Source: Eudoraea adriatica DSM 19308 (GTDB lineage: Bacteria; Bacteroidota; Bacteroidia; Flavobacteriales; Flavobacteriaceae). Taken from it: 64,000 nucleotides of DNA. Below the pieces are notes generated by a model that did no database searches, had not been told where the DNA came from, and saw nothing but the letters and a program-made list of their open reading frames with translations. The DNA is taken from contig NZ_KB907553.1 in the NCBI RefSeq assembly GCF_000382125.1, forward strand, positions 62,001-126,000, in the 5' to 3' direction. This document shows positions 4,742 to 34,338 of this stretch, one piece after another (the first letter of the stretch is position 1; each line of letters begins with the position of its first letter). A program made the position numbers and the translations under genes.

Positions 4742-4766
4742 ATCGCAACGCACAAAACCGAATAAG

Positions 4767-5936
4767 ATGAAAAATACCTTTATAATAATACTAATTTCAT
4801 TACTGATCACATCCTGCGGAAATGGATCAGTTGATTCCGTTGAAACTTTAATTGCAGAAGGTAATTTGGAAGCTATAAAATTAAAAAAACAGGAAATTAC
4901 TGAAAAACAAAAGCTATTAACCGCAGAACTCAGACAGCTTGATTCCTTTATCAAAATAAAGGATAGCAATTCTAAATTAGCCCTGGTAACCACCATTAAA
5001 ACAGAAGAAAGGGAGTTTAGGCACTATCTGGATCTTCAGGGGAATGTAATGACCAAACAAAATGTGTTGATTTATCCGGAAATGGCCGGAACTTTAATTA
5101 AGGTATATGTTAAGGAAGGTCAAAATGTCAAAAAAGGTCAGCTTTTAGCAACGATAGATGATGGCGGAATGAGCAGCCAACTTGAACAGCTCAAAACTCA
5201 GGCCGCACTTGCAAAAACTACCTTTGAACGTCAAAAAAGGCTATGGGAACAAAAAATCGGATCTGAAATTCAATATCTCCAGGCTGAAACCAACTATCAG
5301 GCCGTAATGAATTCTGTTAAACAAGCGGAAAGCCAGTTGGCAAAATCAAGCATCAGAGCTCCTTTCTCAGGAATAATAGATAATGTTATCCAGGAACAGG
5401 GAACTGTTGTGTCACCCGCCAGCGGACAAGCTATATTCCGCATTATTAACCTCTCTGATATGTATATAGAAGTAGACGTGCCTGAGAGTTATATAAATGG
5501 GGTAACCGTTGGGAAGGAAGTAAACATTTATTTTCCGGTTCTGGGCGACAGCATTACCTCTACCATCCGGCAAACAGGGAATTTTATTAACCCAACCAAC
5601 CGATCTTTTCGAGTGGAAATAGCGGTGCCAAACACAAAGAATACCATAAAACCAAATCTGACGGCTCGTGTCCAGATTAACGATTATTCGAATACAAACG
5701 CCATTTTAATTCCACAGAGTTTGATATCTGAAAATGCAGAAGGAGAACAATATGTTTATGTAGCAACAGAGGTAGATTCTGATAACATGGCTGTAGCCAA
5801 AAAACAAATAATTCGTACAGGGCTTACACAGGGAGACTATGTAGAAGTATTAGCAGGAATTACACCAGAGGTTCAGGTAGTAATGGAAGGTGCCCGAAAT
5901 GTCCGGGAAAATCAGAAAGTAAAAATAATTCAATAG
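4767..5936 (+). CDS. RND efflux periplasmic adaptor (membrane-fusion) lipoprotein
   Basis: Links the RND pump to the TolC channel. A lipobox (LLITSC, Cys17) indicates a lipoprotein anchored in the inner membrane. A coiled-coil segment follows (about 30-70), then the split biotinyl-lipoyl domain (GTLIKVYVKEGQNVKKGQLL near 110-130 and its second half around SSIRAPFSGIID near 195), a helical hairpin, and C-terminal beta-barrel and membrane-proximal domains. The RND gene starts four bases after its stop, so the two are translationally coupled. Confidence 0.9.
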   Translation: MKNTFIIILISLLITSCGNGSVDSVETLIAEGNLEAIKLKKQEITEKQKLLTAELRQLDSFIKIKDSNSKLALVTTIKTEEREFRHYLDLQGNVMTKQNVLIYPEMAGTLIKVYVKEGQNVKKGQLLATIDDGGMSSQLEQLKTQAALAKTTFERQKRLWEQKIGSEIQYLQAETNYQAVMNSVKQAESQLAKSSIRAPFSGIIDNVIQEQGTVVSPASGQAIFRIINLSDMYIEVDVPESYINGVTVGKEVNIYFPVLGDSITSTIRQTGNFINPTNRSFRVEIAVPNTKNTIKPNLTARVQINDYSNTNAILIPQSLISENAEGEQYVYVATEVDSDNMAVAKKQIIRTGLTQGDYVEVLAGITPEVQVVMEGARNVRENQKVKIIQ

Positions 5937-5940
5937 TCTT

Positions 5941-8900
5941 ATGAGCAAGCAAAAGAGAAACGCAAATAAGGAATTCCGATTATCTTCCTGGGCTATTGAT
6001 AACCCTTCGGTCATTTATGTAATGATTGGAATCTTCTTTTTCATTGGTTTATCTTCCTATTTTTCCATGCCCAGAGAAGACTTCCCTGAAGTTAAGGAAA
6101 CCAAGATTTACATTAGTACAATTTATCCCGGAAATACGGCAGAAGATATTGAACGCTTGCTTACAGATCCACTGGAGGACAGATTAAAGGACGTGAGTAA
6201 TCTGGTGGAAATTACCTCTACCTCGCAGGAAGATTATTCTATGATTGTTGTGGAATTTGATGAGGATATAACCGTTGAAAATGCGAAACAAAAGGTCAAG
6301 GATGAAGTAGACAGTGAAAAGGCGAGTGAAGACTGGCCTATTTTTAATGGTGCTAAAGTAGAACCGGATGTCTTTGACCTGAATTTGTCTGAATCTTTTC
6401 CCATAATGAATGTTAACCTTACGGGGGATTATCCTGTTGACAAATTAAAGGAATTTGGGGAATACCTGGAAGATGAAATTGAAGATTTACCGGAGATTAA
6501 AGCTGTAGATATAAGGGGAGCCCAGGATAAGGAAGTAGAGGTGGCTGTAGATATTTATAAAATGATGGCGGCCAAGGTAAGCTTTGACGATGTAATACAG
6601 GCTATAAGCAATGGGAATATGACTATGTCTGCCGGAAATTTAAAGACTAGCGGTCAGCGTCGTACAATTCGGGTTTTAGGCGAAATTGAAGACCCGGCAG
6701 AACTTGAAGACTTTGTGGTAAAATGGGAAAATAATGATGCCGTATACCTTAAGGATATTGCCGAGGTTTCTTTCAGGGAAGAAGAAAAAATCACATATGC
6801 CAGGGAACGGGGAAAAAGTGTGGTTATGCTCGATATTAAAAAACGAGCAGGTAAAAATGCAATTACCGCCGCAGATCGAATAAAGGAAATTGTAAAGGAA
6901 TCAAAAGAGAACTATTTTCCGGCAGACTTGCAGGTAACTATCGCCAATGATTCCTCAAACCGAACATTGAATCAGGTTGACGACCTGGTGAACAATATTA
7001 TTTTCGGGATCATCCTGGTGGTAACCGTTTTAATGTTCTTTCTAGGTTTCCGCAACGCTCTTTTTGTAGGGTTTGCAATTCCTATGTCTATGTTCATGTC
7101 CTTTATGATATTATCTGCCATGGGATATACTTTAAATACCATGATCTTGTTCGGTCTAATTATGGGTCTGGGTATGCTGGTAGACAATGGAATTGTAGTT
7201 GTTGAAAATGTCTACAGGCTTATTGAAGAAGAAGGAATGCCTCGTATTGAAGCGGCTAAAAAAGGTATTGGAGAAATTGCTTTTCCAATAATTATATCTA
7301 CTGCCACCACGGTGGCCGCCTTTGTACCGCTAGGGCTTTGGCCCGGTCTTTTTGGGGAATTTATGATCTATTTCCCAATAACCTTATCGGTTGTGCTTGG
7401 CTCTTCATTATTTGTGGCCATCTTTATGAACTCCATGTTAGTATCGAGCTTTATGGAGGTAGGAGATAAAGAACTGACGAGAAAACAGCTAATTCGCCTT
7501 AGTATTGTCCTTGGTGGGTTTGGTCTGTTTATCCTCATATTTGGTGGAGCTGTTCGCGGTTTGGGTTCCCTGATGATCGTAGTGGCAATCTTATTCTGGA
7601 TTTATAAATACGGACTTAAAAAAGCGGCTTTAAAATTTCAGAAAAAATACCTGTCACGATTTGAAAATTGGTATGAAAATCTATTGAGAACTGCTTTGAG
7701 GGGAAGAAATGTGTATGCTTTCTTTGGTTTTACAGTACTTTTATTAATAGTAGCCTTTATTGCTTTTGGCATATCACTTGGGAGTGGCCGAACCAAAGTG
7801 GAGTTTTTTCCTGATAATGTACCTAATGAGATTTATGTGTATATAGAATATCCACAGGGTACGTCGATAGAAAAAACCAATGAAATAACTAAAAATATTG
7901 AAAAAAGGGTCTACGCCATTGCAGACGATCCTAAATATATGGATGGTGAAAATAATTTACTTGTCGCATCAAGTGTTTCACAAGTAGGTAAAGGCGCAGA
8001 AAATCCGTTTACCGAAGGAGGGTCAGCAGCAGAAATGCCTCATAGGGGTAAAATAACTATTTCTATGGAGGAGTATAAATTTAGAAATGGCAGAGATACC
8101 GAAGCGCTTCGCAAAGAAATTCAGGATGGATTAAAGGGCATTTATCCGGGAATTGCTATTTCTGTTGAAAAAGATCAGGTTGCTCCTCCTTCAGGGTATC
8201 CAATAAATATTGAAATTGAAGGTAAGGATTACAACGTTTTAATAAATACGGCAGAGCAAATGCGTAATTTCCTTAATTCGAAAAATATAGAGGGTATTGA
8301 AGAATTAAAGATTGATGTTAATACAGGGAAACCCAGTATGCAGGTTACTGTAGATCGGCAAAAAGCCGGTGAACTTGGGGTGTCTGTAGGACAGGTGGGC
8401 TTGCAGTTAAGACGTTCCCTTTTTGGAGACAAAGCCGGCATTTATAAAGCAGGTGGCGAAGACTATGACATTAATGTTCGTTTTAATAAAGATCTCAGGT
8501 ATAATACCAGTGCTTTATTTAATCAGAATATAATTTTCAGGGACCAGTCAACAGGTCGTATAAAAGAAGTTCCTGTTTCTGCGGTAGCATCACAGAGAAA
8601 CACCTCAAGTTTCAGCGCCATAAAACACAAGGACACAAAACGTGTTGTTACACTTTATTCCGGACTTAGGCCTGGATTTACAGATGCCGGCGCTATTGTA
8701 GCTGAGATAAAAAAGGAAATGGAAGAATTTACCGGTGTTCCGGCCGATGTAAAAATTGACTATACCGGTCAAATTGAAGAGCAAAACAAACAAATGAATT
8801 TTTTGGTTGGTGCATTCTTTTCCGGACTTGGATTAATAATGCTAATCCTTATCTTCCAATTTGGTGGTATTTCGAAGCCCGCTATTATAATGACGGCCAT

Positions 8901-20485: not shown

Positions 20486-21583
20486 ATGTCTTTTAGATTA
20501 ATATTATTGGGCTTGTTGTTATTGTCCTCTACCCGGGCATATTTTCAGGATAGTATTCCTCCTGTTACTGCCATCGACACCACAAAAATTGATACCATTG
20601 TAATCCGGGCAACCCAATACAAAGTCAAAGCAGTGCCCAGGGGAATACGTTTTATTAACCCTGATATTTCGTTTAATGATACCAAGGTGCTAAGCGAACC
20701 ATATGAACCCTTTGTAATTCCATCTTTTTGGACCAGAGAAAATAAATTGGGCTTAAACGTTAGTCAGGTTGCTTTTGTTAATTGGAATGCAGGTGGTGAA
20801 AATGCCGTTTCCGGCCTTGGAAACCTGAAATTTATAAGAAATTATAAATTCAGGTACCTAAAATGGAATAACGAGCTAATCCTCAAATATGGGATAAATG
20901 TGCAGGAAGGCAGGGAGTTAAGAAAGACAGAGGACGTTATCAGGTTTACCTCTACTTTTGGCTATCGCCGGGATACCCTGAGTAAATGGTATCATTCAGT
21001 AAACGTAAAATTTAATACACAAATAACAGATGGTTACAAGTATCCGGACACGGAGAATCGCATCTCCAGATTTATGGCCCCGGGCTATCTGTTTTTTGGT
21101 GGCGGCCCTTCCTATGCCCCTGAAGGTGAAAAATTCAACCTCTATCTGTCGCCTACAACGGTAAAAGCAACTTTTGTTCTGGATCAAACACTTGCTAACC
21201 AGGGTGCATTTGGAGTGAAAAGGGCGATATATGATGAGGAGGGTAACCTGGTGACCAGGGGAGAAAAAAAGTTTATTGAATTCGGGATATTAGTAACGAA
21301 TACCTGGGAGAAAGAAATCTCTAAGAATATTATTATGCAGCATCGTCTTAGTCTTTTTACAGATTATGTGAGGAGCTTTGGAAATATTGATATAGACTGG
21401 GAATTGAATTTTACATTTAAGGTGAACGACTTATTTGAGGCCAATTTTGGAACCCAGGTTATATATGATGACGATATACGCTTTGATCAGGTAATCGCTG
21501 ACACCGGAAATGTAATTGATCCGGGGGTGCCCAGAATACAGTTCAGACAGGCCCTGGCCATTGGCCTGGCTTATAATTTTTAA
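20486..21583 (+). CDS. DUF3078 outer-membrane-like protein
   Basis: The 365-residue secreted protein has a signal peptide (about 1-18) and a C-terminal half of alternating beta-strands that looks like a small outer-membrane barrel. WTRENKLGLNVSQVAFVNWN near residue 75-95 is the hallmark of the DUF3078 family of Bacteroidota; function unknown. Its ATG lies one base after the dxs stop, so the two are almost certainly cotranscribed. Its TAA overlaps the stop of the convergent dgt gene in a shared TTAA. Confidence 0.85.
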   Translation: MSFRLILLGLLLLSSTRAYFQDSIPPVTAIDTTKIDTIVIRATQYKVKAVPRGIRFINPDISFNDTKVLSEPYEPFVIPSFWTRENKLGLNVSQVAFVNWNAGGENAVSGLGNLKFIRNYKFRYLKWNNELILKYGINVQEGRELRKTEDVIRFTSTFGYRRDTLSKWYHSVNVKFNTQITDGYKYPDTENRISRFMAPGYLFFGGGPSYAPEGEKFNLYLSPTTVKATFVLDQTLANQGAFGVKRAIYDEEGNLVTRGEKKFIEFGILVTNTWEKEISKNIIMQHRLSLFTDYVRSFGNIDIDWELNFTFKVNDLFEANFGTQVIYDDDIRFDQVIADTGNVIDPGVPRIQFRQALAIGLAYNF

Positions 21584-22923
21584 AGTTGTTTCCCGCTTAT
21601 TTTATTATGTATATGAACTGCCGCACTGTCTGAAAGACTGGCAACAAAACAACTGGCATTCAACAAAACAGAATAGATAGAGCCTTGGGTATTTCTGTAT
21701 TCAGGGGGCAGGGTTTGTATTAGCAATTTATCATAATTGGTGGGTTTACCTTCCATTTGTCTCACCAGCGCCCTGGTAAATACCTCCAGAATATCCGAAA
21801 TAATCTTATAGCCGGCAATTTCTTTTTCTATTACTCCGGGAGAACAATAGATTTCATTCACGCTTAGCTGAATAATGTCCGCAACCTGAGCTTTATAATT
21901 GCTGCGATCCAAAAGTGACACGCCAAAGGTGCCATCTAGAATTACCTCCTCGTTCTCAATAAAAATTGATACCGCATCACTGATTAAGGTATTAATAGCC
22001 AAAGCCCTTAAATAGCTAAGCCTGTCGGCCATAATGGTCAGGGAATTATATTTTTTTGTATTAATGGTGTCTTTGACCAGTTTAATCAAATACTCCAGGG
22101 CGTACTCTTCAGAAATTAGTCCCAGGTTTATTCCATCCTCAAAATCAATTATGGTGTAACAGATGTCATCGGCAGCTTCAACCAAATAAGTCAGGGGATG
22201 CCGGGAATATGCAATGTCTTTCCCACGGCCTGTAGAGATAAGCCCCAATTCCCCGGCAACTTCTGTAAAGAATTCCTTTTGAGACTGGAAAAATCCAAAT
22301 TTTTTATCTGCTATATGGGCTGAAGGCTTTTTTGGAAGAGATTCCTTGGGATATTTCATAAAGGCCCCCAGGGTTGCATAGCTCAATCGAAGTCCTCCGG
22401 ATACACCCTCGCGTGATTCGGTAAGCAACTTAAACCCGTTTGCATTTCCTTCAAAATCAATAAGATCCTGATACTCCTTTGCGGACAAAAGAGATTGATA
22501 TCTTTTGCCTTCCCCATGTGCAAAGAATTCCCCGATTGCCTTTTCACCACTATGTCCAAATGGCGGATTTCCAATATCATGCGCCAGAGCGGCGGCGGCC
22601 ACAATAGCTCCAAAATCTCCAAATTTATACCCATGGGTTTCTTTTAAAAAGGGATGCTTTTGCAGCAGCTTTTCACCGGCAATCCTTCCAAGGCTACGCC
22701 CCACAACAGAAACTTCCAGGCTATGGGTTAAACGGGTATGAACAAAATCTGTTTTTGAGAGCGGTATTACCTGCGTTTTATCCTGTAGACTCCGGAAAGC
22801 TGCAGAAAATATTACCCGGTCATAGTCTACCTCAAAGCCCAGACGCGTCTCATTTTGTTCCCTGCGCAGTCTTTTACTCTGGTCCCCGTGACGCTTTAAT
22901 GAAAGTAATTTCTCCCACACCAT
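21580..22923 (-). CDS. dgt: deoxyguanosinetriphosphate triphosphohydrolase-like HD protein
   Basis: Cytosolic HD-domain dNTPase that removes triphosphate from dGTP or other dNTPs. The HD metal site is visible: His in FVHTRLTHSLEV, the AHDIGNPPFGHSGE motif, and a later Asp in VEAADDICY. The length of about 447 residues matches Dgt type-1/2 proteins. The frame can start at 22944, but ATG 22923 (MVWEKLLSLKRHGD) is the conserved N-terminus. Convergent with the DUF3078 gene and overlapping it by four bases. Confidence 0.9.
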   Translation of the reverse strand: MVWEKLLSLKRHGDQSKRLRREQNETRLGFEVDYDRVIFSAAFRSLQDKTQVIPLSKTDFVHTRLTHSLEVSVVGRSLGRIAGEKLLQKHPFLKETHGYKFGDFGAIVAAAALAHDIGNPPFGHSGEKAIGEFFAHGEGKRYQSLLSAKEYQDLIDFEGNANGFKLLTESREGVSGGLRLSYATLGAFMKYPKESLPKKPSAHIADKKFGFFQSQKEFFTEVAGELGLISTGRGKDIAYSRHPLTYLVEAADDICYTIIDFEDGINLGLISEEYALEYLIKLVKDTINTKKYNSLTIMADRLSYLRALAINTLISDAVSIFIENEEVILDGTFGVSLLDRSNYKAQVADIIQLSVNEIYCSPGVIEKEIAGYKIISDILEVFTRALVRQMEGKPTNYDKLLIQTLPPEYRNTQGSIYSVLLNASCFVASLSDSAAVHIHNKISGKQL

Positions 22924-23010
22924 TTTTAAACTTTTGGGGTACAAGTTACTTTTTTTAATTCAGGTAGTTAGTTCATATTCTTCTTTGTTTTCTATAGGGT
23001 TTAGGGTCCC

Positions 23011-23107
23011 TTAACCTTTAGTTAACTTCTTAACACAAATCTAACAATAAGAATATAAATGTTTAACCTGAGGGTAACACAGCTTTTACAACTGCTCACG
23101 TTATTTG
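23011..23107 (+). promoter_or_regulatory. Pho-box-like 11-bp hexamer array and promoter of the TonB receptor
   Basis: Hexamers of form NTWACM occur at 23011 TTAACC, 23022 TTAACT, 23030 TTAACA, 23041 CTAACA, 23063 TTAACC, 23074 GTAACA and 23085 TTTACA. The five from 23030 onward are all in one 11-bp phase with one repeat skipped at 23052; the first two form a separate 11-bp pair. A TTTG (23104-23107) lies 13 bases after the last hexamer and the ATG 38 bases after it. The 11-bp period equals that of E. coli PhoB and B. subtilis PhoP boxes. Binding by a PhoB-like regulator is inference. Confidence 0.7.
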
Positions 23108-23128
23108 CGGCGGTATTAAACATAGTAA

Positions 23129-25942
23129 ATGAAACAATTATTATTAAGTCTGCTATTTATAGCGACGATGGCATTCACGAGTAATGCACAAGAAACGGGA
23201 AGTATTTTAGGAAAACTTACCGATACAGAAGCCAACAATGAACCGCTGGCTTTTGCAAACGTAATAATCAAGGGTACTACAAAAGGAACTACATCAGATT
23301 TTGATGGTTTATATGAATTAAGCGATATAGAACCTGGCACGTATACCGTTGTTTTCAGTTTTTTAGGATACGAAACCGTAGAAATTCCAGATGTAACCGT
23401 CGTGGCCGGAAATGTAACCACCTTAGATATTCCAATGTCTGCCTCACAAGGGGTGTCTTTAGACGAGGTTGTTATAACAGTTCAGGCCAGAAAAGATTCT
23501 GAAGTGGCATTGTTATTAGATCAGAAACAAGCTGTGGAGATTAAAGAAAGTATTGGAGCCCAACAATTATCAAAAATTGGTGTAACGGACGTAGCCGTGG
23601 CTACTACAAAAATATCAGGTGTAACCAGTAGTGAGGCCTCTGGTGACATCTTTATTAGAGGTCTAGGAGATCGTTATCTTTCTACTACTCTTAACGGTTT
23701 GGCCGTACCCTCAGATGATGTAGAACGCAAAAACATCGACTTAGGCCTTTTTAACACAAGAGTTATTCAAAATGTAAGTGTTAGTAAAACCTATGATGTT
23801 AGCTCTTCAGCAGATCAATCCTCTGGTAATGTAAATATTACTTCTAGAGAATTAGCAGGAAATAGTGAATTGAATATTGGCTTACAATCTGGTTTCAACA
23901 CAAATATATTAAGTAATGGTGTTTATGGGAACTTCAAAGTTTCTCCTAACTCCAACAATACAGATTTTGGGTTTTACAATCAAAATTTAAATACCCAAGA
24001 ACTTATAACACAACAAGGTTGGAATACGGTAAAACGAGATAATCCAATAAACTACAGATTTAATGTAGCGGGAGGAAAACGAATTGCCGAAAAACTAGCT
24101 ATATTTTTCTCTGGTTCGCATTCTAGAAAATTTGAATATGGGGAAGGTATTTTTAGGCAATTCAGATCCAATTTTGTAGACGATACTATAACAGATGCTA
24201 GCAATTGGAGAGAAGAGGTTGTTACCTCTGGACTATTAGATCTAACCTATTATATTAATGATAAGAACAAACTTAAATCAAGTACCTTTTTTATAAATAC
24301 TTTAAATGAGGAGATTTATGAAGGAGGGAGAAATGGTGAAGGCTTTATTTTTGAAGAAACCGATCCTGCAGAAGGACTAGGTCAGTTTATCCGAGACCAA
24401 AATACAAAACAGACCCGATTAATCGTGACCCATTTAATTGGTACACATCAGATAGGGGATAAGAATACCCTGCATTGGGCTGGAGGTTACAATCTTGTCA
24501 ATGCCGATGAACCAAATAGGATACGTAACGAGGTAAACTTTGACCCCAATAGTGATTTTGTTCAATTGGGTAGAACTGGTGGGTTTCAACAAAGAAAGTC
24601 AAGTCAGACTATAGAGGATGTTGAATATAATGGATTTATCAAAGATGAATTCCGTATTAAGGAGGACGGTCCTAACCCAATGAAATTAGAATTTGGGGTA
24701 AACTTTAGAAAGAAAGAAAGAGATTTTAGATCAGAATTTGTAGGTGTTGAAGAAAGAACCACCAATACGATAAACCCACCATCCATAGATAATTTAGGAG
24801 CCATTTTTCAGCAATCAAACTTTGATTCAGGAGACTTACAATTAAATCTACTTCAGCCAGATTTATATGTCGGAAATTTAGATTCACAGGCAGCTTTTGT
24901 CGATTTTAATATCGGATTTAACAAGTTTAATGCAGATTTTGGTTTAAGGTATCAAAGAGATCAAATAGACGTAGCTTTTGATGTAGGAAACTTTCCAGGT
25001 AGGGTTGGTGAAAGTGTTAAAGAATATGATAACTTCTATCCTAGTGTAAATCTAAAGTATGATTTTAACGAGAAACAAGCCTTGCGCTTTGCATTTAGTA
25101 GAACCATTACACTTCCAGAATTTAAAGAAATAGCCCCGTTTGAATATGTTTCTCAAGTTGGACAAGTTACTCGTGGTAATCCAGATTTAGAAGCCTCTCG
25201 TGATCTAAATTTTGATCTTAAGTGGGAATTTTTTCCTTCCAACGACCAGCTAATCTCTGTTGCTGCATTTTATAAGAATATCAGTGATCCTATAAACAGA
25301 GCCCAAGATCGAGGTTCTGCAGGAGTTTTTTCTTATTTCAATACCGGAAATAAGGCAGAAGTCATTGGCATAGAAGCCGAAACAAAACTTAATCTCATAA
25401 ATGCCGAAATAAATGGGGAAACCAATGTTCCCAGTACTAGTGGGCTAAACCTGGTATTTAATGTGAGCAGAATGTGGCATAGCCAAGATTTAAAAGAAGT
25501 ATTTGATGAAGAGGGAAATTTCATCAGAACTTTTAGATATAAAGGCCTAACAGAAGAGGGCCTAGAAGGAGCTTCGGACTGGATATTAAATGCAAGTCTC
25601 AATTTTACCTCACCAGGTGAAAATCCATTTAATGCTTCCTTAACAGCAAATTATGCCTCAGATAAAATATTCGCGATTGGTGCTCCTGAAATACAAAGTG
25701 AAAGTGAAACATTTTATAATGACGCAATCGTAGAAAAAGGTTTTGTGGTGTTAGATGCCGTAATAAGCAAAGAATTTAGCGAGCACTGGCGCCTGCGATT
25801 TATTGGCCGGAACTTATTAAACCCTAGTATAGAAAGAACACAATTGGTTAAACCAAGTACTACAGGAATAGAAACCGAAGAATTGGTCCGATCCTATACC
25901 AGAGGTGCTCAGATAAATCTGGGACTGAGTTATACATTTTAA
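23129..25942 (+). CDS. TonB-dependent receptor with carboxypeptidase-like domain
   Basis: Outer-membrane receptor of 937 residues: signal peptide (1-20), carboxypeptidase-like regulatory domain (about 25-105), TonB-box-like LDEVVITV near 112, plug (about 140-240, with RGLGDRYLSTTLNGL) and a barrel ending in LGLSYTF. It is not SusC-like. It forms an operon with the beta-helix lipoprotein 46 bp downstream. The promoter carries a Pho-box-like array, so phosphate-limited expression and import of a phosphorus source are inferred. The gene reads more AT-rich and with fewer AGG and CTG codons than susC, which hints at transfer from another flavobacterium. Confidence 0.9.
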   Translation: MKQLLLSLLFIATMAFTSNAQETGSILGKLTDTEANNEPLAFANVIIKGTTKGTTSDFDGLYELSDIEPGTYTVVFSFLGYETVEIPDVTVVAGNVTTLDIPMSASQGVSLDEVVITVQARKDSEVALLLDQKQAVEIKESIGAQQLSKIGVTDVAVATTKISGVTSSEASGDIFIRGLGDRYLSTTLNGLAVPSDDVERKNIDLGLFNTRVIQNVSVSKTYDVSSSADQSSGNVNITSRELAGNSELNIGLQSGFNTNILSNGVYGNFKVSPNSNNTDFGFYNQNLNTQELITQQGWNTVKRDNPINYRFNVAGGKRIAEKLAIFFSGSHSRKFEYGEGIFRQFRSNFVDDTITDASNWREEVVTSGLLDLTYYINDKNKLKSSTFFINTLNEEIYEGGRNGEGFIFEETDPAEGLGQFIRDQNTKQTRLIVTHLIGTHQIGDKNTLHWAGGYNLVNADEPNRIRNEVNFDPNSDFVQLGRTGGFQQRKSSQTIEDVEYNGFIKDEFRIKEDGPNPMKLEFGVNFRKKERDFRSEFVGVEERTTNTINPPSIDNLGAIFQQSNFDSGDLQLNLLQPDLYVGNLDSQAAFVDFNIGFNKFNADFGLRYQRDQIDVAFDVGNFPGRVGESVKEYDNFYPSVNLKYDFNEKQALRFAFSRTITLPEFKEIAPFEYVSQVGQVTRGNPDLEASRDLNFDLKWEFFPSNDQLISVAAFYKNISDPINRAQDRGSAGVFSYFNTGNKAEVIGIEAETKLNLINAEINGETNVPSTSGLNLVFNVSRMWHSQDLKEVFDEEGNFIRTFRYKGLTEEGLEGASDWILNASLNFTSPGENPFNASLTANYASDKIFAIGAPEIQSESETFYNDAIVEKGFVVLDAVISKEFSEHWRLRFIGRNLLNPSIERTQLVKPSTTGIETEELVRSYTRGAQINLGLSYTF

Positions 25943-25988: not shown

Positions 25989-28034
25989 ATGAAGACGAAA
26001 ACAACAAAATTCTTAATGATGATTATGGCCATCACAACCCTAACAATAATAGGCTGTAGTAGTGATGATAACAACCCTGATCCTCCCGGGGAAGGAGGAG
26101 GTGAAGCTACTTGTACAGACGGAATCCAAAATGGAGATGAAGAAGGTATAGACTGTGGAGGCTCTTGTCCTAACGCCTGCGAGTCAGAAGAAGGAACTGA
26201 TCTTACAGGGTCAATAACCGAAGACCGCACACTAGACGCAAGTGTTTCCTATGTCTTAACAGGTACGCTTAGTGTTGAAAGTGGCGTTACTTTAACAATT
26301 CCTGCAGGAACAACTATTACTTCAGAAACTGGAACCGACAAATATATCGTAGTCCAAAAAGGTGGCTCTATAGATATTCAAGGTACCGCTGCCCAACCAG
26401 TTTTAATGACTTCGGCCGGTCAGAATCCTGGAGATTGGGGTGGCTTAGTTATTGCCGGCGATGCGACGACTACAGAAGGTATAGATGCTATTGCTGAAGT
26501 GGGTGGTATTATTTATGGTGGGACTACAGATACAGACAGCTCAGGATCCATCAACTATTTAATAATTGATTACGCAGGAGCACAGATTAACTCTGAATCA
26601 CAATATAATGGTCTATCTCTTTATGCCGTTGGATCTGGAACATCTATAGAGAATGTTGCCATCTTAAACGGAACAGATGATGGTGTTGAATTCTTTGGAG
26701 GTACCGTAAGTGTTACCAACTTATATCTTGAAAATAATGAGGACGATGCTGTAGATTGGACAGAGGGATGGAATGGTACTGTAGTTAACACCTATGTTCT
26801 TCATACTATTGAAGGTTTTTCTACAGCGGTAGAAGCAGATGGTATAAACGGGAATCCAACGCTTACTAATTTCACTGCCGTTTCTACAGAAAATGGTACA
26901 GCACTCCAATTCAAAAAAGAATCTGGAGCAACTATTACTGGGCTATCTTTAACAGGTTATGTTGTTTCTGTAGATATGAGAGATAACGGTGCCCTCGCAA
27001 ATGTTCAAATTGACGGAGCAACGGCAGATCCAAACTTAACTTATTTAGCTCCACCAACTGTTGATATTGATTTATTCTCATGGGTAGAAAATGCTTCAGA
27101 AGTGGAAACAATTGCTTTGTCGGGAACAATCACAACCGACACTTCTCTTGATGCCAATACAATCTATTTGTTAGATGGGAACCTTAGTGTTGAAGCACCC
27201 GCCAAATTAACTATCCCGGCTGGAACACTAATAATTGCAGATGCTGCTGGTACTGAAGCTACGGAGACTTATATTGTGGTTAAAAAAGGAGCTCAGATCG
27301 ATATTCTTGGTACAGAGTCCGACCCAGTTACAATGACTTCCACCGGACAGAACCCAGGTGACTGGGGTGGATTAGTAATCCTAGGAGATGCTACTACCAC
27401 GGAAGGTGTTGATGCGATTGCTGAAATTGGTGGATTCGTTTATGGAGGAACTAATGACGCAGATAATTCCGGAACTATTAACTACTTAATTATCAACTAT
27501 GCCGGAGCTCAAATAAATTCAGAATCCCAGTTTAATGGATTATCTCTTTATGCAGTTGGTTCTGGAACTACAATTGAAAATGTAGGTATACTAAACGGTA
27601 CGGATGACGGTGTTGAGTTCTTTGGTGGAACGGTAAATGCTTCAAATATTTACTTAGAAAATAACGAAGACGACGCAGTAGACTGGACGGAAGGATGGAA
27701 CGGTACATTAGTGGATACTTATGTATCTCATACTCTTGCAGGCTTTTCAACCGCTGTTGAAGCGGATGGAATTACCGCAGGGCCAACGATAACTAATTTT
27801 ACTGCCATATCCACTGCTGATCCTGGAGGAACTGCTTTACAGTTCAAAAAGGAAACTGGGGCTACAATGACAAATGTTCTTTTAACAGGATATGTAGTAA
27901 ATGTGGACATGAGAGACGCAGGTGACGTTGCAAATGTAGTCGTAGATGGTACTCCATTGACTAGCGTTGATGACGATGTCTTTAATGGCACTCCCGTAGA
28001 CATTACTATGTTTAGTTGGATAACTGGCGATTAG
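25989..28034 (+). CDS. surface lipoprotein with duplicated beta-helix-like domain
   Basis: The 681-residue protein has a lipobox (TIIGCSS, Cys23), then a Cys-rich linker with Cys at 42, 56, 60 and 64 of the pattern CTDGIQNGDEEGIDCGG seen in secreted Bacteroidota proteins. Two homologous domains follow (about 73-370 and 375-681), each with LTIPAG, NPGDWGGLVI, GLSLYAVGSGT, DDGVEFFGGT and EDAVDWTEGWNGT-like blocks, which suggests a right-handed beta-helix. It follows the TonB receptor and probably partners it at the cell surface. No catalytic motif is evident; function unknown. A strong terminator follows. Confidence 0.85.
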   Translation: MKTKTTKFLMMIMAITTLTIIGCSSDDNNPDPPGEGGGEATCTDGIQNGDEEGIDCGGSCPNACESEEGTDLTGSITEDRTLDASVSYVLTGTLSVESGVTLTIPAGTTITSETGTDKYIVVQKGGSIDIQGTAAQPVLMTSAGQNPGDWGGLVIAGDATTTEGIDAIAEVGGIIYGGTTDTDSSGSINYLIIDYAGAQINSESQYNGLSLYAVGSGTSIENVAILNGTDDGVEFFGGTVSVTNLYLENNEDDAVDWTEGWNGTVVNTYVLHTIEGFSTAVEADGINGNPTLTNFTAVSTENGTALQFKKESGATITGLSLTGYVVSVDMRDNGALANVQIDGATADPNLTYLAPPTVDIDLFSWVENASEVETIALSGTITTDTSLDANTIYLLDGNLSVEAPAKLTIPAGTLIIADAAGTEATETYIVVKKGAQIDILGTESDPVTMTSTGQNPGDWGGLVILGDATTTEGVDAIAEIGGFVYGGTNDADNSGTINYLIINYAGAQINSESQFNGLSLYAVGSGTTIENVGILNGTDDGVEFFGGTVNASNIYLENNEDDAVDWTEGWNGTLVDTYVSHTLAGFSTAVEADGITAGPTITNFTAISTADPGGTALQFKKETGATMTNVLLTGYVVNVDMRDAGDVANVVVDGTPLTSVDDDVFNGTPVDITMFSWITGD

Positions 28035-28090: not shown

Positions 28091-28159
28091 TATTAAGCGT
28101 TTATCTTAAATAGCATAGAAAAAAATTTATAATATCATTTTTGACCTAATCGAAATTTT

Positions 28160-28255
28160 ATGACTGAGGATATTTATTTGTTTATGATTATCTCTCTAGC
28201 TGCCTTAGCCATTACCGCCGTGGTTGTTGGGTTAAGTAATGATGCGGTAAATTAG
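28160..28255 (+). pseudogene. 5' fragment of a second Pit phosphate transporter gene
   Basis: An ATG opens a 31-codon frame whose product starts MTEDIYLFMIISLAALAI and ends LSNDAVN before TAG. It aligns with the start of the intact Pit protein at 30185 (IYLFMII and SNDAVN identical), where the frame continues NFLNSAIGS. After this point the DNA switches to the 3' end of a different gene in another frame. The fragment is therefore a remnant of a second pit copy cut at codon 31. Confidence 0.75.
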
Positions 28256-28616
28256 TAACGACGCCGGATATTTCTCTTCTCCAAATGTTACCAATTTAAC
28301 TGTTGCCGGAGCTGATGATACAAGTGAGACAATCAGGCTTAGGGACGTTACCCAGGGTATATTCACCAATGTAGTTCTTAATGACTTTGATGAAGGGTTT
28401 GACCTAGACGGAGATACAGGAGATAACCCTACCGGGCAAGGTGTCCTGGACGGAGCTCTTGGTGTAATTGATGTAACTTTTAACAATGTAATTACAAAAC
28501 TAAAAAATGATACAGGTTTTAATTTCACAGAAGCCTATTTTATTTCAGGTGATGGTAATGGAACAGGTACAGATGTTTCTGCCTGGGGTACAGGCTGGAC
28601 CGTAGGTATTAACTAA
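28254..28616 (+). pseudogene. 3' fragment of another beta-helix lipoprotein gene
   Basis: A frame without its own start codon runs from the junction to TAA and encodes about 120 residues beginning SNDAGYFSSPNVTNLTV and ending WGTGWTVGIN. Composition and blocks (LRDVTQGIFTNVV, ALGVIDVTFNNV) resemble the C-terminal ends of the same beta-helix lipoprotein family as the gene at 25989, but it is not a copy of that gene's end. A terminator follows, as expected for the true 3' end of a once intact gene. It begins inside the pit fragment at a short imperfect repeat. Confidence 0.65.
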
Positions 28617-28639
28617 TAAAAAATTAAAATACGGATTAT

Positions 28640-28668: not shown

Positions 28669-28770
28669 AAGTAAGGGTACTTTGACTCTAAAGTTCGGGC
28701 GTAATTAGTTAGTTGGATGTTCAAGCAATGAAGTTCTTTACCTTTTGCTTTACTTTTGTCCCGCTTTTTA

Positions 28771-28837
28771 ATAACCTTTTTGTTACACAATAGTAATATT
28801 TGGTTAACCTTAATTTTACATTGAGGTCTTTCTTTTG
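28771..28837 (+). promoter_or_regulatory. Pho-box-like 11-bp hexamer array and promoter of the free-standing domain gene
   Basis: Five consecutive hexamers in strict 11-bp register: 28771 ATAACC, 28782 GTTACA, 28793 GTAATA, 28804 TTAACC, 28815 TTTACA. The last one ends 13 bases before TTTG (28834-28837) and 37 bases before the ATG at 28858, the same geometry as at the TonB receptor promoter. Confidence 0.7.
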
Positions 28838-28857
28838 CAATAAAATTTAAGTGAGCG

Positions 28858-29259
28858 ATGAAAGAATTGGTATTGGTATTTTCTCTTCTATTTACAGGGC
28901 TTCTGTTTTCACAGCACGAGGGTTCTGTTGCCGGAACAATACTGGACAAAGAAATGAATAATGAACCTATGCTTTTTGCTAACGTTCAACTTAAAAATAC
29001 CTCCAAAAGTATACAGACCAATTTCCATGGAAATTTTGAAATACATGACATTAAAGCCGGGGATCACATTCTGGTAGTTACTTACTTGGGATATGAGACT
29101 TTAGAAATCCCAATTAGTATTGAGGAAGATAAGACTACAAGAGTGATTGATGAACTCGTAGCCAAAAAAATAAGTCTCGATGAAATTGCGGGTTTGTATA
29201 AAAAATCAGAAGAAACTGCATACAGTACTACTATTTCTGAACAAAGTTCAGGTAAATAA
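28858..29259 (+). CDS. free-standing carboxypeptidase-like regulatory domain protein
   Basis: The 133-residue protein has a signal peptide (about 1-19) and one carboxypeptidase-like regulatory domain (about 22-100, with NNEPMLFANV and YLGYETLEIP) that matches the N-terminal domain of the TonB receptor at 23129. It ends about 30 residues after a SLDEI segment that aligns with the receptor TonB box, so plug and barrel are absent. Own promoter array and terminator argue that it is expressed and not debris. It may be a periplasmic partner of receptors, or the retained head of a lost receptor. Confidence 0.75.
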   Translation: MKELVLVFSLLFTGLLFSQHEGSVAGTILDKEMNNEPMLFANVQLKNTSKSIQTNFHGNFEIHDIKAGDHILVVTYLGYETLEIPISIEEDKTTRVIDELVAKKISLDEIAGLYKKSEETAYSTTISEQSSGK

Positions 29260-29740: not shown

Positions 29741-29779
29741 TTAACTTTAAATCAACTATTACTTAACATTAAATTTACA
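29741..29779 (+). promoter_or_regulatory. Pho-box-like array of four hexamers, orientation away from nearest gene
   Basis: Perfect 11-bp register: 29741 TTAACT, 29752 TCAACT, 29763 TTAACA, 29774 TTTACA. On this strand it points toward the Pit gene 400 bp away, while the nearest gene (MORN-like) runs leftward. An ATTG lies about 15 bases downstream where the other arrays have TTTG at 13. It could activate in either direction, or drive a short untranslated transcript. Confidence 0.6.
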
Positions 29780-30116
29780 TTGAAAACGAAAAATATTGAT
29801 TATTAGTATCTTACCAACTTAATTTTTTTAAAATATTCGTTAGATTTTGTGCTCTCTAAGTTTTAAGAACCTGTCTTTGCAGATTATTTGAAATAAATAG
29901 AATTTGATCTTACATAAAACCTGAATAACCCACTTCCATAAATTCGCTGTGAAAAATAAATTTCTATAGGGTGGTAAAAAAACCTGTTTATAGCTTTCCA
30001 AATATCTTATGGTCTCAAATGTAACATTAAAGAGAATATCCTTACTTTGCAATAGACTTGGAAACAGACTTTATAGTTTAAGCATTAGAGATAAATCTCA
30101 ATTTTAATTATAAATG
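29780..30116. other. gene-free stretch upstream of Pit
   Basis: No convincing gene. A 70-codon leftward frame (29840-30052) contains LFFTANLWKW, which faintly recalls the start of Y1 (IS200-like/RAYT) transposases, but lacks the HUH motif and is probably decayed or accidental. Confidence 0.5.
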
Positions 30117-30144
30117 ATAACTTTAAGGTAACACATCAAAAATA
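30117..30144 (+). promoter_or_regulatory. Pho-box-like hexamers at the Pit promoter
   Basis: ATAACT (30117) and GTAACA (30128) are 11 bp apart; a degenerate third site (AAAATA, 30139) would keep the register. From that third site, TTTA at 30158 is again 13 bases away and the ATG is 40 bases away, close to the geometry of the two clear arrays. Confidence 0.5.
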
Positions 30145-30184: not shown

Positions 30185-32446
30185 ATGGATAATATTTACT
30201 TATTTATGATAATAGCATTGGCCTTCCTGGCCATTGCGGATCTTGTAGTTGGCGTTAGTAACGATGCAGTAAATTTTTTGAATTCAGCTATAGGGTCAAA
30301 GGCCATTTCTTTCAATACTATAATGATAGTAGCCAGTGTTGGGATTGCATTTGGTGCAATGTCTTCCAGCGGAATGATGGAGGTGGCGCGCAAGGGGATC
30401 TTCAATCCTGGTGAATTCTTCTTTGCTGAAATAATTATAATATTTATGGCCGTGATGATTACAGATATCCTGTTACTGGATTTCTTTAACACTCTGGGCA
30501 TGCCAACCTCAACCACAGTTTCAATTGTATTTGAATTATTAGGAGCTGCTGTGGCCGTATCCCTTCTAAAAATATGGGCAGCAGATGGGAGTTTCGCAGA
30601 TTTGAGCATGTATATCAATACTGATAAAGCCACGGAAATTATACTGGGTATCATCCTTTCTGTTATAATAGCCTTTACTATTGGGGCCCTTATACAATTT
30701 ATTGCCCGATTACTGATTACTTTCAGATTTGAAGACAAACCCAAGTGGCGTGGGGCTATTTTTGGTGGTTTTGCATTAACGGCTATCGTGTACTTTATCC
30801 TTATAAAAGGGCTTAAAAGTGCAAACCTTTTTGGTGGAATAATTACAGATTACGTTGCCCAGCAACCTGAACTATTTATTCTGTCAAATTTAATTTTTTG
30901 GTCCATCATATCCCGCATTTTTACCGGTGTCTTTAAATGGAATATTTATACTGTAATTATTGTTGTAGGTACCTTTGCGCTAGCCATGGCCTTTGCCGGA
31001 AATGATTTGGTAAATTTCATTGGTGTCCCAATTGCTGCGTTGCAGTCTTTTCAGGATTGGCAGGGAACCGGAATTCCAGCATCAGAATATACTATGGAAA
31101 GCTTATCTGCAGCGGTTCGAACTCCTGTGATGCTTTTGCTTCTGGCAGGAATTATTATGATAATTACCCTGTGGTTTTCTTCAAAAGCAAGGAGTGTTGT
31201 AAAAACGAGTGTTGATCTGTCAAGACAAAATCAGGGTGAAGAAAAATTTCAACCAAACTTCCTGTCCAGGCAGGTAGTTAAATATTCTATTAAGGTTTTT
31301 GATAAGGTAAATGATGTCTTCCCTAAAAGTTTACAAAAAAAGGTAAATCAGCAATTCGCCCAAACCTATGATTATTCATTAACAAGTAAGGTTAAAGATT
31401 TACCCGCCTTCGACCTGGTTCGCGCTGCCGTAAATCTTATGGTGGCAAGTGTTTTGATTTCCATTGCTCCCTCAATGAAATTACCTCTTTCCACCACTTA
31501 TGTGACCTTTATGGTGGCTATGGGGACCTCACTGGCCGATCGTGCCTGGGGTACAGAAAGTGCTGTCTACAGGGTTGCAGGTGTGTTTAATGTAATTGGT
31601 GGTTGGTTCCTAACCGCAATTATTGCATTTTCGGCAGCAGCTCTGGTGGCCCTAATAATCCATTTTGGCGGTATAATTGCAGTTGGATTTCTATTGTTAT
31701 TTGCCGCAATTCTGATAACCAGAAATTATTTGAATCACAGAAAATCCAACAGACTTGCCAAGTTGGAATATGGTCTGAAAAGAGCTGAGAGCAGTTCTAT
31801 TCAAGGGGTAATTGAAGAAAGTGCGGATAACATAACCAGTGTTATTAAGCGAAGTAATAAAATCTATACACATGCTATAGATGGCCTTGCAAGACATGAT
31901 TTGGAAATGCTAAAGAAAAGCAAGAAACAAGTTTTAAAACTTTCGGCTGAAATAGATGATCTCAGGGATAATATATTTTATTTTATAAAGAACCTGGATG
32001 AGAATAATATTGGTGCCAGTAATTTTTATTTAAATATTTTGGACTATCTTCAGGATATTGCGCAATCACTTGAATATATTGGAAAGATCAGCTATAAACA
32101 TGTAAACAATAATCATAAAAAACTTACCTACAGCCAGATTAAGGAATTAAAAGAATTGGATATCGAAATGGAATCGCTTTTTGACAAAACAAAAGTTGCT
32201 TTTGAAGACCGGCAGTTTCAGAAAATCGCTGAAGTGCTGGCTCATAAAGAAGATATGTTTAATTTATTGACTCAAAAAATTTCAAGACAAATCACAAGAA
32301 CAAGGGGAGAAGAGTCCAGTCCTAAAAATACTACCTTATATTTCAATATTTTAACTGAGACCAAGGATCTCGTAACAGCAACCCTGAATTTAATGGAAAT
32401 ATACTACCAGGAATACGACAGCAATATTCAGCCGGCAACCTTATAG
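30185..32446 (+). CDS. inorganic phosphate transporter (Pit/PHO4 family) with PhoU-like C-terminus
   Basis: Inner-membrane low-affinity phosphate symporter of 753 residues. The PHO4 signature occurs in both halves (GVSNDAVNFLNSAIGSKA near 24-41; STTYVTFMVAMGTSLADRAWG near 438-458), within about a dozen hydrophobic segments up to residue 520. The last 200 residues are helical and charged, like PhoU/DUF47 proteins that are separate genes in other bacteria; the fused domain may sense or gate transport. Convergent with the Na/Pi cotransporter gene. The promoter carries Pho-box-like hexamers. Confidence 0.92.
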   Translation: MDNIYLFMIIALAFLAIADLVVGVSNDAVNFLNSAIGSKAISFNTIMIVASVGIAFGAMSSSGMMEVARKGIFNPGEFFFAEIIIIFMAVMITDILLLDFFNTLGMPTSTTVSIVFELLGAAVAVSLLKIWAADGSFADLSMYINTDKATEIILGIILSVIIAFTIGALIQFIARLLITFRFEDKPKWRGAIFGGFALTAIVYFILIKGLKSANLFGGIITDYVAQQPELFILSNLIFWSIISRIFTGVFKWNIYTVIIVVGTFALAMAFAGNDLVNFIGVPIAALQSFQDWQGTGIPASEYTMESLSAAVRTPVMLLLLAGIIMIITLWFSSKARSVVKTSVDLSRQNQGEEKFQPNFLSRQVVKYSIKVFDKVNDVFPKSLQKKVNQQFAQTYDYSLTSKVKDLPAFDLVRAAVNLMVASVLISIAPSMKLPLSTTYVTFMVAMGTSLADRAWGTESAVYRVAGVFNVIGGWFLTAIIAFSAAALVALIIHFGGIIAVGFLLLFAAILITRNYLNHRKSNRLAKLEYGLKRAESSSIQGVIEESADNITSVIKRSNKIYTHAIDGLARHDLEMLKKSKKQVLKLSAEIDDLRDNIFYFIKNLDENNIGASNFYLNILDYLQDIAQSLEYIGKISYKHVNNNHKKLTYSQIKELKELDIEMESLFDKTKVAFEDRQFQKIAEVLAHKEDMFNLLTQKISRQITRTRGEESSPKNTTLYFNILTETKDLVTATLNLMEIYYQEYDSNIQPATL

Positions 32447-32562: not shown

Positions 32563-34338
32563 TTATGCTGCAGTATTCATATGGTTTACTCCTTCTTGTA
32601 TTTCATTTAACAATGGATCTTTCGATGTGTATAAAATCTGAGCAACCTCTATTAGTTTCTCCATAAGAACTTTTACATTATCGTGGTCATTAACCAGTGA
32701 TGATGCCATATCCGTAGTTATCAGATCTTCCCTGATTAGTCTATCGATATTAACATTTTCTTTTTCTAAACTATATTCAATTTTGTTGCGAAGAACATTT
32801 AATTCCTTGTGAAATTCCTCTCTTGATAATTCAGTCCTATACAGAAATATAACCCTTAAAACGGTTATAACCAACTTTCTATAATTATTGTATCTGTCTT
32901 TTATATAGGTGTTTTCGGACCCCAAATATTTTGAAACATTCCGGTTTAATTCCCTGACGTCGCGAATGATTTCCACCATATTCCTGTTTGCCAGTTTTAG
33001 TTGCATAATTCGACTATTCTGGGTCTCGGTTAAATTTAGAGTACTTTGGGCCAGGGTAGCATATTTAATAATTTCGCCGTAAATAGTCTTCACTTTAGAC
33101 AGGTATAAGGCTCTTACATCTGTCTTAAAATCTTCCACAGATTTCTTAATTACTTTTTTGGTCTTTAAATCCGACAAAATATCCGATCGATGAATATTCA
33201 GTGCGTGAGTAACAATTTCAAAAATTGCATTCTTGTATAGATAATCTGTCTCTTTAAACAAGGTTGCTATGGCGGTCTCCGGATACTTTAACATTTTATC
33301 ATCCAAATATTTTGGTACTTCTATGGCCTTTTCGGGGAGTATTATCTCCGGGACCATTTTCTCAACAAGACGGGCTATAGGCTTAATAAGCCAAACCAGT
33401 ATAAATGTATTCAGGACATTGAAAATCGTGTGGAATAAGGAAATCGCAACCGGAGCTGCTGCAACGTTTACAAATGGTGATGCAGAACCTAATTTCTGTA
33501 CTATCAGGCTAATTAACTGCAAAAAGGGATAGAACACCGCAAGCATCCAGATTACACCCAAAATATTAAAAATAAAATGGGCCCTTGCCGTTCTTTTGGC
33601 CTGGTAATTCCCGACTATTGAAGCAATATTGGCAGTTATGGTAGTACCAATATTTTCGCCGAGAACCATGGCCGCAGCCAATTCAAATGGAATAAGGCCC
33701 TGTGCAGTCATTAATAATGTCAATGCCATAGTAGCACTGGAAGATTGAATAATCAGGGTTAGAAATGTGCCAATTAATAAAAATAGAAGTACAGACCAAA
33801 ATCCTGCATCGGTATACCTCGTAAGAAATTCAAGGATTTGGGGGTTATCATCTATATTGGGCATGGCCTCCTTTAAAAACTGCAATCCAATGAATAAAAT
33901 GGCAAATCCGATGATAAATTCTCCCCAATTTTTTGAATTTTCTTTTTTTGAAAACGTAATTAAAAACCCAACCCCCACTAATGGCAGCGCAATTGCACTC
34001 ATGCTTACTTTAAATCCCAATATTGTAATTAACCATGCTGTAATGGTAGTACCTATATTAGCTCCCATGATTACGCTAATAGCCTCCGGTAAGGTTAGTA
34101 AAGAAGCATTCGAAAAGCTTACCACCATAAGTGTAGTGGCGGAGGAAGATTGTATTACCGATGTGATAAGAAAGCCGGTTGCTATGCCCAAAAACCGTTT
34201 AGATGCCATGGTTGCAAGAATAGACCGCATTTTATTACCCGCAAGCTTTATCAAGGCATCGCTCATTACTTTCATTCCAAAGAGGAATAAGCCCAGAGAG
34301 CCTATCAATTGCAAAATATCTGTAAAACCGTATGCCAT
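32563..34338 (-). CDS. Na/Pi cotransporter family protein with PhoU-like domain
   Basis: Inner-membrane sodium-phosphate symporter (NptA/YjbB type), 591 residues. The inverted-repeat signature QSSSAT occurs twice (63-68 and 198-203), each followed by a GANIGTTIT or GENIGTTITA segment. About eight membrane helices end near residue 330, and a helical PhoU-like domain follows (about 345-565). It is the second phosphate transporter of the locus, convergent with Pit. Two hexamers 11 bp apart lie 41 bases before its ATG. Confidence 0.9.
   Translation of the reverse strand: MAYGFTDILQLIGSLGLFLFGMKVMSDALIKLAGNKMRSILATMASKRFLGIATGFLITSVIQSSSATTLMVVSFSNASLLTLPEAISVIMGANIGTTITAWLITILGFKVSMSAIALPLVGVGFLITFSKKENSKNWGEFIIGFAILFIGLQFLKEAMPNIDDNPQILEFLTRYTDAGFWSVLLFLLIGTFLTLIIQSSSATMALTLLMTAQGLIPFELAAAMVLGENIGTTITANIASIVGNYQAKRTARAHFIFNILGVIWMLAVFYPFLQLISLIVQKLGSASPFVNVAAAPVAISLFHTIFNVLNTFILVWLIKPIARLVEKMVPEIILPEKAIEVPKYLDDKMLKYPETAIATLFKETDYLYKNAIFEIVTHALNIHRSDILSDLKTKKVIKKSVEDFKTDVRALYLSKVKTIYGEIIKYATLAQSTLNLTETQNSRIMQLKLANRNMVEIIRDVRELNRNVSKYLGSENTYIKDRYNNYRKLVITVLRVIFLYRTELSREEFHKELNVLRNKIEYSLEKENVNIDRLIREDLITTDMASSLVNDHDNVKVLMEKLIEVAQILYTSKDPLLNEIQEGVNHMNTAA

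Follow-up and report, generated by a model that had tools for sequence, protein, structure and literature searches.

The 184 bases that separate a divergent HD-domain gene from a TonB-dependent receptor in Eudoraea adriatica DSM 19308 contain a run of short hexamers repeated every 11 bp and followed by TTTG. The question raised by this locus is which regulator reads these repeats and in response to what signal. The window analysed here is a stretch of 64,000 nucleotides, to whose numbering all positions refer; in it the HD-domain gene, dgt-like by reading, occupies 21580-22944 on the minus strand and the receptor (CarbopepD_reg_2, Plug and barrel domains) 23129-25942 on the plus strand. A first-pass annotation had proposed a response regulator of the OmpR/PhoB class as the reader and phosphate as the signal. 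Our comparison with related genomes leads to a similar answer: the element is very likely the Pho box of a phosphate-starvation promoter, through which PhoB would drive the receptor/lipoprotein operon.

Six hexamers in the intergenic region match NTWACM strictly (23011, 23030, 23041, 23063, 23074 and 23085). This is one fewer than the seven originally counted, since the hexamer at 23022, TTAACT, agrees with NTWAC but not with the final M. Five of the six (23030, 23041, 23063, 23074 and 23085) share a single 11-bp phase. The upstream pair TTAACC-N5-TTAACT (23011-23027, plus strand) is itself spaced at 11 bp, as had been noticed before, but stands off the phase of the other hexamers; a similar TTAAC-N6-TTAAT pair is found in the corresponding region of some relatives. 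TTTG lies at 23104-23107, exactly the 13 bases past the last hexamer (23085-23090) that had been claimed for it. The slot at 23052 holds a degenerate unit, so that the core element is better described as six phased units, 14 bases and TTTGC than as seven hexamers.

The phasing itself is well founded, as 5000 dinucleotide shuffles of the intergenic region never gave five in-phase hexamers, their maximum being three. The total of six hexamers, taken alone, has a p value of 0.0074 in the same shuffled region, and periods of 8 to 14 other than 11 bring at most two hexamers into phase. Across the whole window, 11-bp pairs were seen 11 times against 2.81 expected, a number reached in none of 100 shuffles. 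Two more 11-bp TWAC pairs occur at 2686-2744 on the minus strand, between polyprenyl synthetase and TetR-type genes. Scored with a matrix built from 57 promoters of other genomes, the window being excluded, the array at 23030 has the highest six-unit score in the window (24.7) and a register starting at 28771 the second highest (20.9), whilst the largest six-unit score among 20 shuffled windows is -1.4. The three-unit score of the array at 23030 (19.6) is level with the largest obtained from 20 shuffled windows (19.4).

Short forms of the array are not enriched in the 3.9-Mb genome of E. adriatica. Three phased units gave eight matches, with eight for the reversed pattern, and a pair plus TTTG gave five against four for the control, two of the five being inside the window. 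Of the three pair-plus-TTTG matches outside the window, the first falls inside a frame of gene length, the second runs over a frame's 3' end and the third precedes a 274-aa frame that is HAD-type hydrolase-like by reading. Among the other three-unit matches, one precedes a SusC-like receptor frame (L002) by 40 bases and another a secreted-protein frame (L005) by 214 bases. A large regulon in this genome was rejected, as the short forms equal their reversed controls.

For the family we used a strict composite of the promoter-proximal part, TAAC-N6-TTTAC-N14-TTTGC, with the reversed pattern as control. In 149 Flavobacteriaceae genomes (148 genera) the composite occurs at 83 sites and the reversed pattern at 15. 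The composite is present in 72 of the 149 genomes and absent from 77, and in 192 genomes from outside Flavobacteriaceae it is not enriched (12 sites, 24 control sites). The 83 classified sites comprise two in the window, 60 fetched first with a preference for good-looking sites, and the remaining 21, added later so that all were counted. Target genes were recognised by blastp at E <= 1e-5; identities to the receptor and the lipoprotein were 26-70% and 29-70% in the first batch, 33-91% and 38-89% in the second. By this measure 64 of the 83 sites precede a TonB receptor/lipoprotein operon, in which either gene may be first, and four precede a small plug-like gene near PiT. The other 15 stand before neither gene type, a figure that equals the reversed-control count; 12 sites of this kind came from the second batch, nine of them overlapping an open frame of at least 100 aa.

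Conservation extends to bases that the search did not specify. We aligned 59 promoters, consisting of 57 of the first 60 fetched sites and the two window sites (three sites without target genes were left out), and numbered each unit by its T, counted from the end of TTTGC. Six units follow one another in exact 11-bp steps: those at -78, -67 and -45 and the A at -54 vary little or not at all, and none of them belongs to the search pattern, whose own units stand at -34 and -23. The corresponding T positions in the window are 23031, 23042, 23053, 23064, 23075 and 23086, all units being on the plus strand. Unit 1 (TTAACA, 23030-23035) falls in columns that read T in 56, A in 58, A in 57 and C in 57 of the 59 promoters, and unit 2 (CTAACA, 23041-23046) in columns with T in 55, A in 58, A in 59 and C in 54; both are outside the pattern. 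Unit 3 (AATATA, 23052-23057) is the degenerate one. Its T column holds T in 43 of the 59 promoters and A in the window, and base 23055 sits in the column that is A in all 59. Unit 4 (TTAACC, 23063-23068), again outside the pattern, has TAA in 59 of 59. Unit 5 (GTAACA, 23074-23079) and unit 6 (TTTACA, 23085-23090) are those of the search pattern, with 14 bases from the TTTAC of unit 6 to TTTGC. Between the units, T at -73, -72 and -61 and A at -50 are partly conserved and the other columns weakly so.

The putative -7 element, GTTATTTGC (23100-23108, plus strand), keeps a fixed spacing to the array. The consensus of this element in Bacteroidota is TAnnTTTG, and we take TTTGC at 23104-23108 to be its counterpart, with a presumed core-promoter role. 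The bases directly before TTTGC are mostly TTTC in the promoter set and GTTA in the window. The lack of a consensus TA before TTTGC would be in keeping with a weak promoter, dependent on an activator. TTAC-N14-TTTG is found at receptor, plug-like, porin and pstS genes.

The second gene of the operon (25989-28034, plus strand) encodes a secreted protein of 681 aa, a lipoprotein by reading of its start. Its predicted structure (mean pLDDT 86.1, 19 sequences) has its best matches among solved structures in GH55 glucanases, PL6 lyases and tailspikes. The TM-scores are low, at most 0.24 for the query among the best 50 matches, possibly owing to an angle between two helices. Judged from its strands and from these matches, the product is predicted to consist of two beta-helix domains; a sequence search of the lipoprotein family against solved structures returned nothing at E <= 1.

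The window holds a second phased array (28760-28838, plus strand; TTTGC at 28834-28838), which precedes a gene for a secreted CarbopepD_reg domain protein of 133 aa (28858-29259, plus strand), a free-standing plug-like domain. Its six-unit score is 18.1 in the register of its TTTGC and 20.9 one unit on, at 28771. The composite also fronts the plug-like gene in three other genomes, G120 (L120), G104 (L243) and G050 (L255), and the gene recurs near PiT in relatives. The 133-aa protein resembles a domain of the receptor without the barrel, and its promoter is of the same type as the receptor's. Further along are genes for a PiT-type phosphate transporter (PHO4; 30185-32446, plus strand) and a Na/Pi cotransporter (32563-34338, minus strand), and many of the fetched relatives have a PHO4 homologue downstream within 7 kb. 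A weak two-unit repeat before the PiT gene (30117-30138, plus strand) scores within the range of shuffled windows. About 420 bases before the same gene, at 29741-29785 on the plus strand, there are phased units with three-unit scores of 17.1 and 17.3 and no TTTG at the usual distance. The stretch between the operon and the plug-like gene, 28150-28620, contains relics: by eye, one frame shows a piece of about 30 aa that is like the N-terminus of PiT and ends in stops, and another frame an apparent C-terminal part of a second secreted protein. These are perhaps the remains of a decayed duplicate of the receptor/lipoprotein/PiT unit. The genome gives no match to PstS (PF12849) or PhoX (PF05787), yet it has PhoB/PhoR-like genes, the PiT transporter and the Na/Pi cotransporter. 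Since the short forms of the array are unenriched and no PstS or PhoX match was found, the regulon in this organism may be very small.

Phosphate genes of relatives provided an independent test, for which both matrix and pattern were derived from receptor promoters. The PstS set has 21 loci (E <= 1e-20) from 20 of 299 genomes and 15 genera, so that not all are independent; 30 iron-type binding-protein loci and 15 weak PBP-like loci served as controls. In the 200 bases preceding the start, 7 of the 21 pstS loci and none of 44 controls carry a looser composite, TWAY-N7-TWAC-N14-TTTG, one control without a start having been left out. A two-unit score with p <= 0.01 was obtained for 9 of the 21 loci and, again, for 0 of 44 controls. 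The pstS gene comes second in several of the loci. A scan of 1500 bases, upstream of pstS or of the preceding gene, found the looser composite at 11 of the 21 loci and at 0 of 45 controls; the other 10 pstS loci lack it. The preceding gene is a phosphate-selective porin (PF07396) in five of six tested pstS loci; four of these porins have the composite in front and the fifth (L209) only a high three-unit score. PhoX promoters were tried as a further set and put aside, as clear PhoX genes were few and the result weak: two of 13 were dropped because they had no start codon in frame, one had 75 bases of upstream sequence plus start, and among the 11 with a start p <= 0.01 was reached in L162 only, two more being marginal. 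The pstS result, together with the PiT and Na/Pi cotransporter genes near the array, supports the proposal that the receptor operon is under phosphate control, as far as comparison of sequences can.

The candidate readers are few, as only two OmpR/PhoB-class (PF00486) regulators were found in the genome. The first, which has a histidine kinase as its neighbour, is best matched among NCBIfam models by PhoB, at 216.9 bits against a curated cut-off of 296.2; the score of PhoR is also below its curated cut-off. The other (G000:C3) has RprY as its best model, likewise below the curated cut-off. This putative phoB-phoR pair is located at G000:C2:346832-348579, away from the array. Relatives bring the two together. 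Of 42 loci with a gene for a relative of the receptor, 23 have phoB, then phoR, placed divergently on the far side of the promoter, and three have phoB 3-6.4 kb away; a dgt-like gene occupies the divergent place in 11, as in the window, and five have neither. The looser composite is present in 12 of the 23 phoB-divergent loci, in all three with phoB nearby, in 8 of the 11 dgt-type loci and in one of the five others. In four loci, three from Aquimarina and one from a MAG (L034, L035, L042 and L050), a second receptor/lipoprotein unit lies upstream, at about 4300-8150 in the numbering of the loci, and the promoter of the unit that was found carries no six-unit array. The PhoB proteins of array loci are 70-87% identical to that of E. 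adriatica. The E. adriatica protein and five aligned array-side PhoB proteins agree in the stretch that we take to be the recognition helix; the RprY-type regulator differs there. These comparisons favour the OmpR/PhoB-class reader proposed at the outset, and the reader is very probably PhoB itself. Apart from the curated PhoB score, the array has the features of a Pho box that can be checked without experiment.

A reader of the RprY type (G000:C3), responding to a signal other than phosphate, is improbable but is the alternative that survives best. In its favour, an 11-bp period is common to regulators of the OmpR/PhoB class. The case for such a reader draws also on Riemerella anatipestifer, another source of a flavobacterial two-component regulator, where a protein named PhoP binds a TTTAACA motif in vitro, including at a TonB-receptor promoter; the available text does not state whether it is an orthologue of PhoB or of RprY (PMC9603813). 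The same source reports that PhoPR rises on phosphate starvation, which would fit a PhoB orthologue. In our own data 23 of 42 loci have phoB next to the array, no separate RprY-type match was seen in any of the 42, the composite is found at pstS and the phosphate porin, and the DNA-binding stretches of PhoB and the RprY-type protein differ.

The shared intergenic region of phoB and receptor in those 23 loci allows another reading, that the array serves autoregulation of phoB and that the receptor merely borrowed it where the two genes are divergent. This is very unlikely. Array and TTTGC are oriented towards the receptor and are kept in the window and, as the looser composite, in 8 of the 11 loci of the dgt type, and the array also fronts pstS and the plug-like gene. 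The region upstream of phoB in E. adriatica has no array, and autoregulation of this phoB was rejected on that ground. Chance clustering of AT-rich words between two genes can effectively be dismissed: isolated words and pairs are frequent in DNA rich in AT and the short forms equal their controls genome-wide, but no shuffle in 5000 reproduced the phasing, units outside the search pattern are conserved and 68 of the 83 sites stand at the same gene set.

A Pho box read by PhoB thus remains the preferred interpretation, and the array may be set beside known operators. The PhoP box of Bacillus subtilis consists of TTAACA repeats, nearly the same word at the same period as in the window, but it belongs to another phylum and differs in promoter element and number of units. 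As described in the accessible part of PMC4415409, the Pho box is the operator of PhoB and PhoP and is made of two 11-nt direct repeat units, in each of which seven positions are conserved and four are loose; the units precede phosphate genes and are bound head-to-tail. Tandem 11-nt direct repeats are common to the Pho box and the window array; the E. coli word CTGTCAT given there does not match NTWAC (TTAAC or TTTAC). The array is further unlike the classical Pho box in having six units in one phase and TTTGC at a fixed distance.

Nearer relatives provide the functional parallel. PUSIV of F. johnsoniae (Fjoh_0541-0549) combines a TonB receptor, Fjoh_0545, and an FII lipoprotein (IPR011050), Fjoh_0546, in the same cluster as phoBR, and Table 1 of PMC8115612 gives them FC values of 8.02 and 9.91 (FC read as log2) on Pi depletion. 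The window has a receptor and a predicted beta-helix protein, whose likeness to FII is by description. The phoBR clustering of PUSIV matches the neighbourhood of 23 of the 42 related loci, whereas the window has the dgt-like HD-domain neighbour and phoBR elsewhere. By analogy, the Pi-inducible pair of F. johnsoniae supports phosphate control of the receptor operon in E. adriatica, the status of Fjoh_0545 and Fjoh_0546 as counterparts resting on domains and context, not on F. johnsoniae sequence. The terms 'pho box', 'promoter', 'motif' and 'binding site' are absent from the main text of PMC8115612 as available, which describes no DNA motif.

For the motif, the point of comparison is again Riemerella PhoP. 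The most conserved bases of its motif match the unit in the window; its authors liken the motif to that of ArcA, and its 583 in vitro peaks (DAP-seq) cover a broad target set (PMC9603813, from the portion at hand). The word 'pst' is absent from its text, and neither an 11-bp array nor a phosphate regulon was found in the portion at hand. In Bacteroides fragilis PhoB is required for expression of pstC, in an account (PMC3547664) whose available text lacks 'motif', 'consensus' and 'binding site'. In the consulted part of PMC4796936 marine bacteria are said to have putative Pho boxes close to plcP, whose sequence is not given there, and 'PhoB' does not occur in the accessible text of PMC9723704 or PMC12872454. 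The open literature searched, outside which fall subscription papers and preprints, yielded no other candidate for a Pho box in Bacteroidota; in it the Riemerella regulator motif alone comes close to a defined Pho box of Flavobacteriaceae. The earlier interpretation needs correcting on two further points: phosphate control of this type of receptor/lipoprotein operon is already known, and a TTTAACA motif has, according to the same Riemerella source, been reported for a flavobacterial regulator named PhoP. As far as searched, three things are new: the form that the element takes across the family, with six phased NTWAC units ahead of TTTGC at constant spacing; the predominance of the outer-membrane receptor/lipoprotein operon among its targets; and its retention in loci that lack an adjacent phoBR.

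We propose a model that starts from what is observed, namely the array, its conservation, the fixed distance to TTTGC, the target operon and, in relatives, the tie to phoBR and to pst and phosphate-porin promoters. Low phosphate would lead PhoR to phosphorylate PhoB. Phosphorylated PhoB would then bind head-to-tail, with up to three tandem dimers on the six 11-bp units (23030-23090). As the proximal units cover the upstream promoter region, bound PhoB could recruit RNA polymerase to the weak -7 element TTTGC (23104-23108) and so turn on the TonB receptor and the beta-helix lipoprotein, from a transcript start expected at about 23113-23116. The pair would be expected to form an outer-membrane uptake system, with phosphorus compounds as the probable substrate. 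The second array (28760-28838) would act likewise on the small plug-like gene near PiT.

A wider proposal can be put forward more tentatively, and may well prove wrong. In Flavobacteriaceae, PhoB could have as its main high-occupancy output this family-specific Pho operator of six phased units with a Bacteroidota-type TTTG element, mostly serving the receptor and beta-helix lipoprotein and not pst; where no PstS or PhoX is found, the surface system and PiT might be close to the whole starvation regulon. Flavobacteriaceae are major degraders of polymers in the sea and in soil, and how they sense and take up phosphorus bears on carbon and phosphorus cycling. The composite of phased NTWAC units, 14 bases and TTTG can be scanned for in any genome of the family, and may help to separate receptors for phosphorus from those for iron or glycans.
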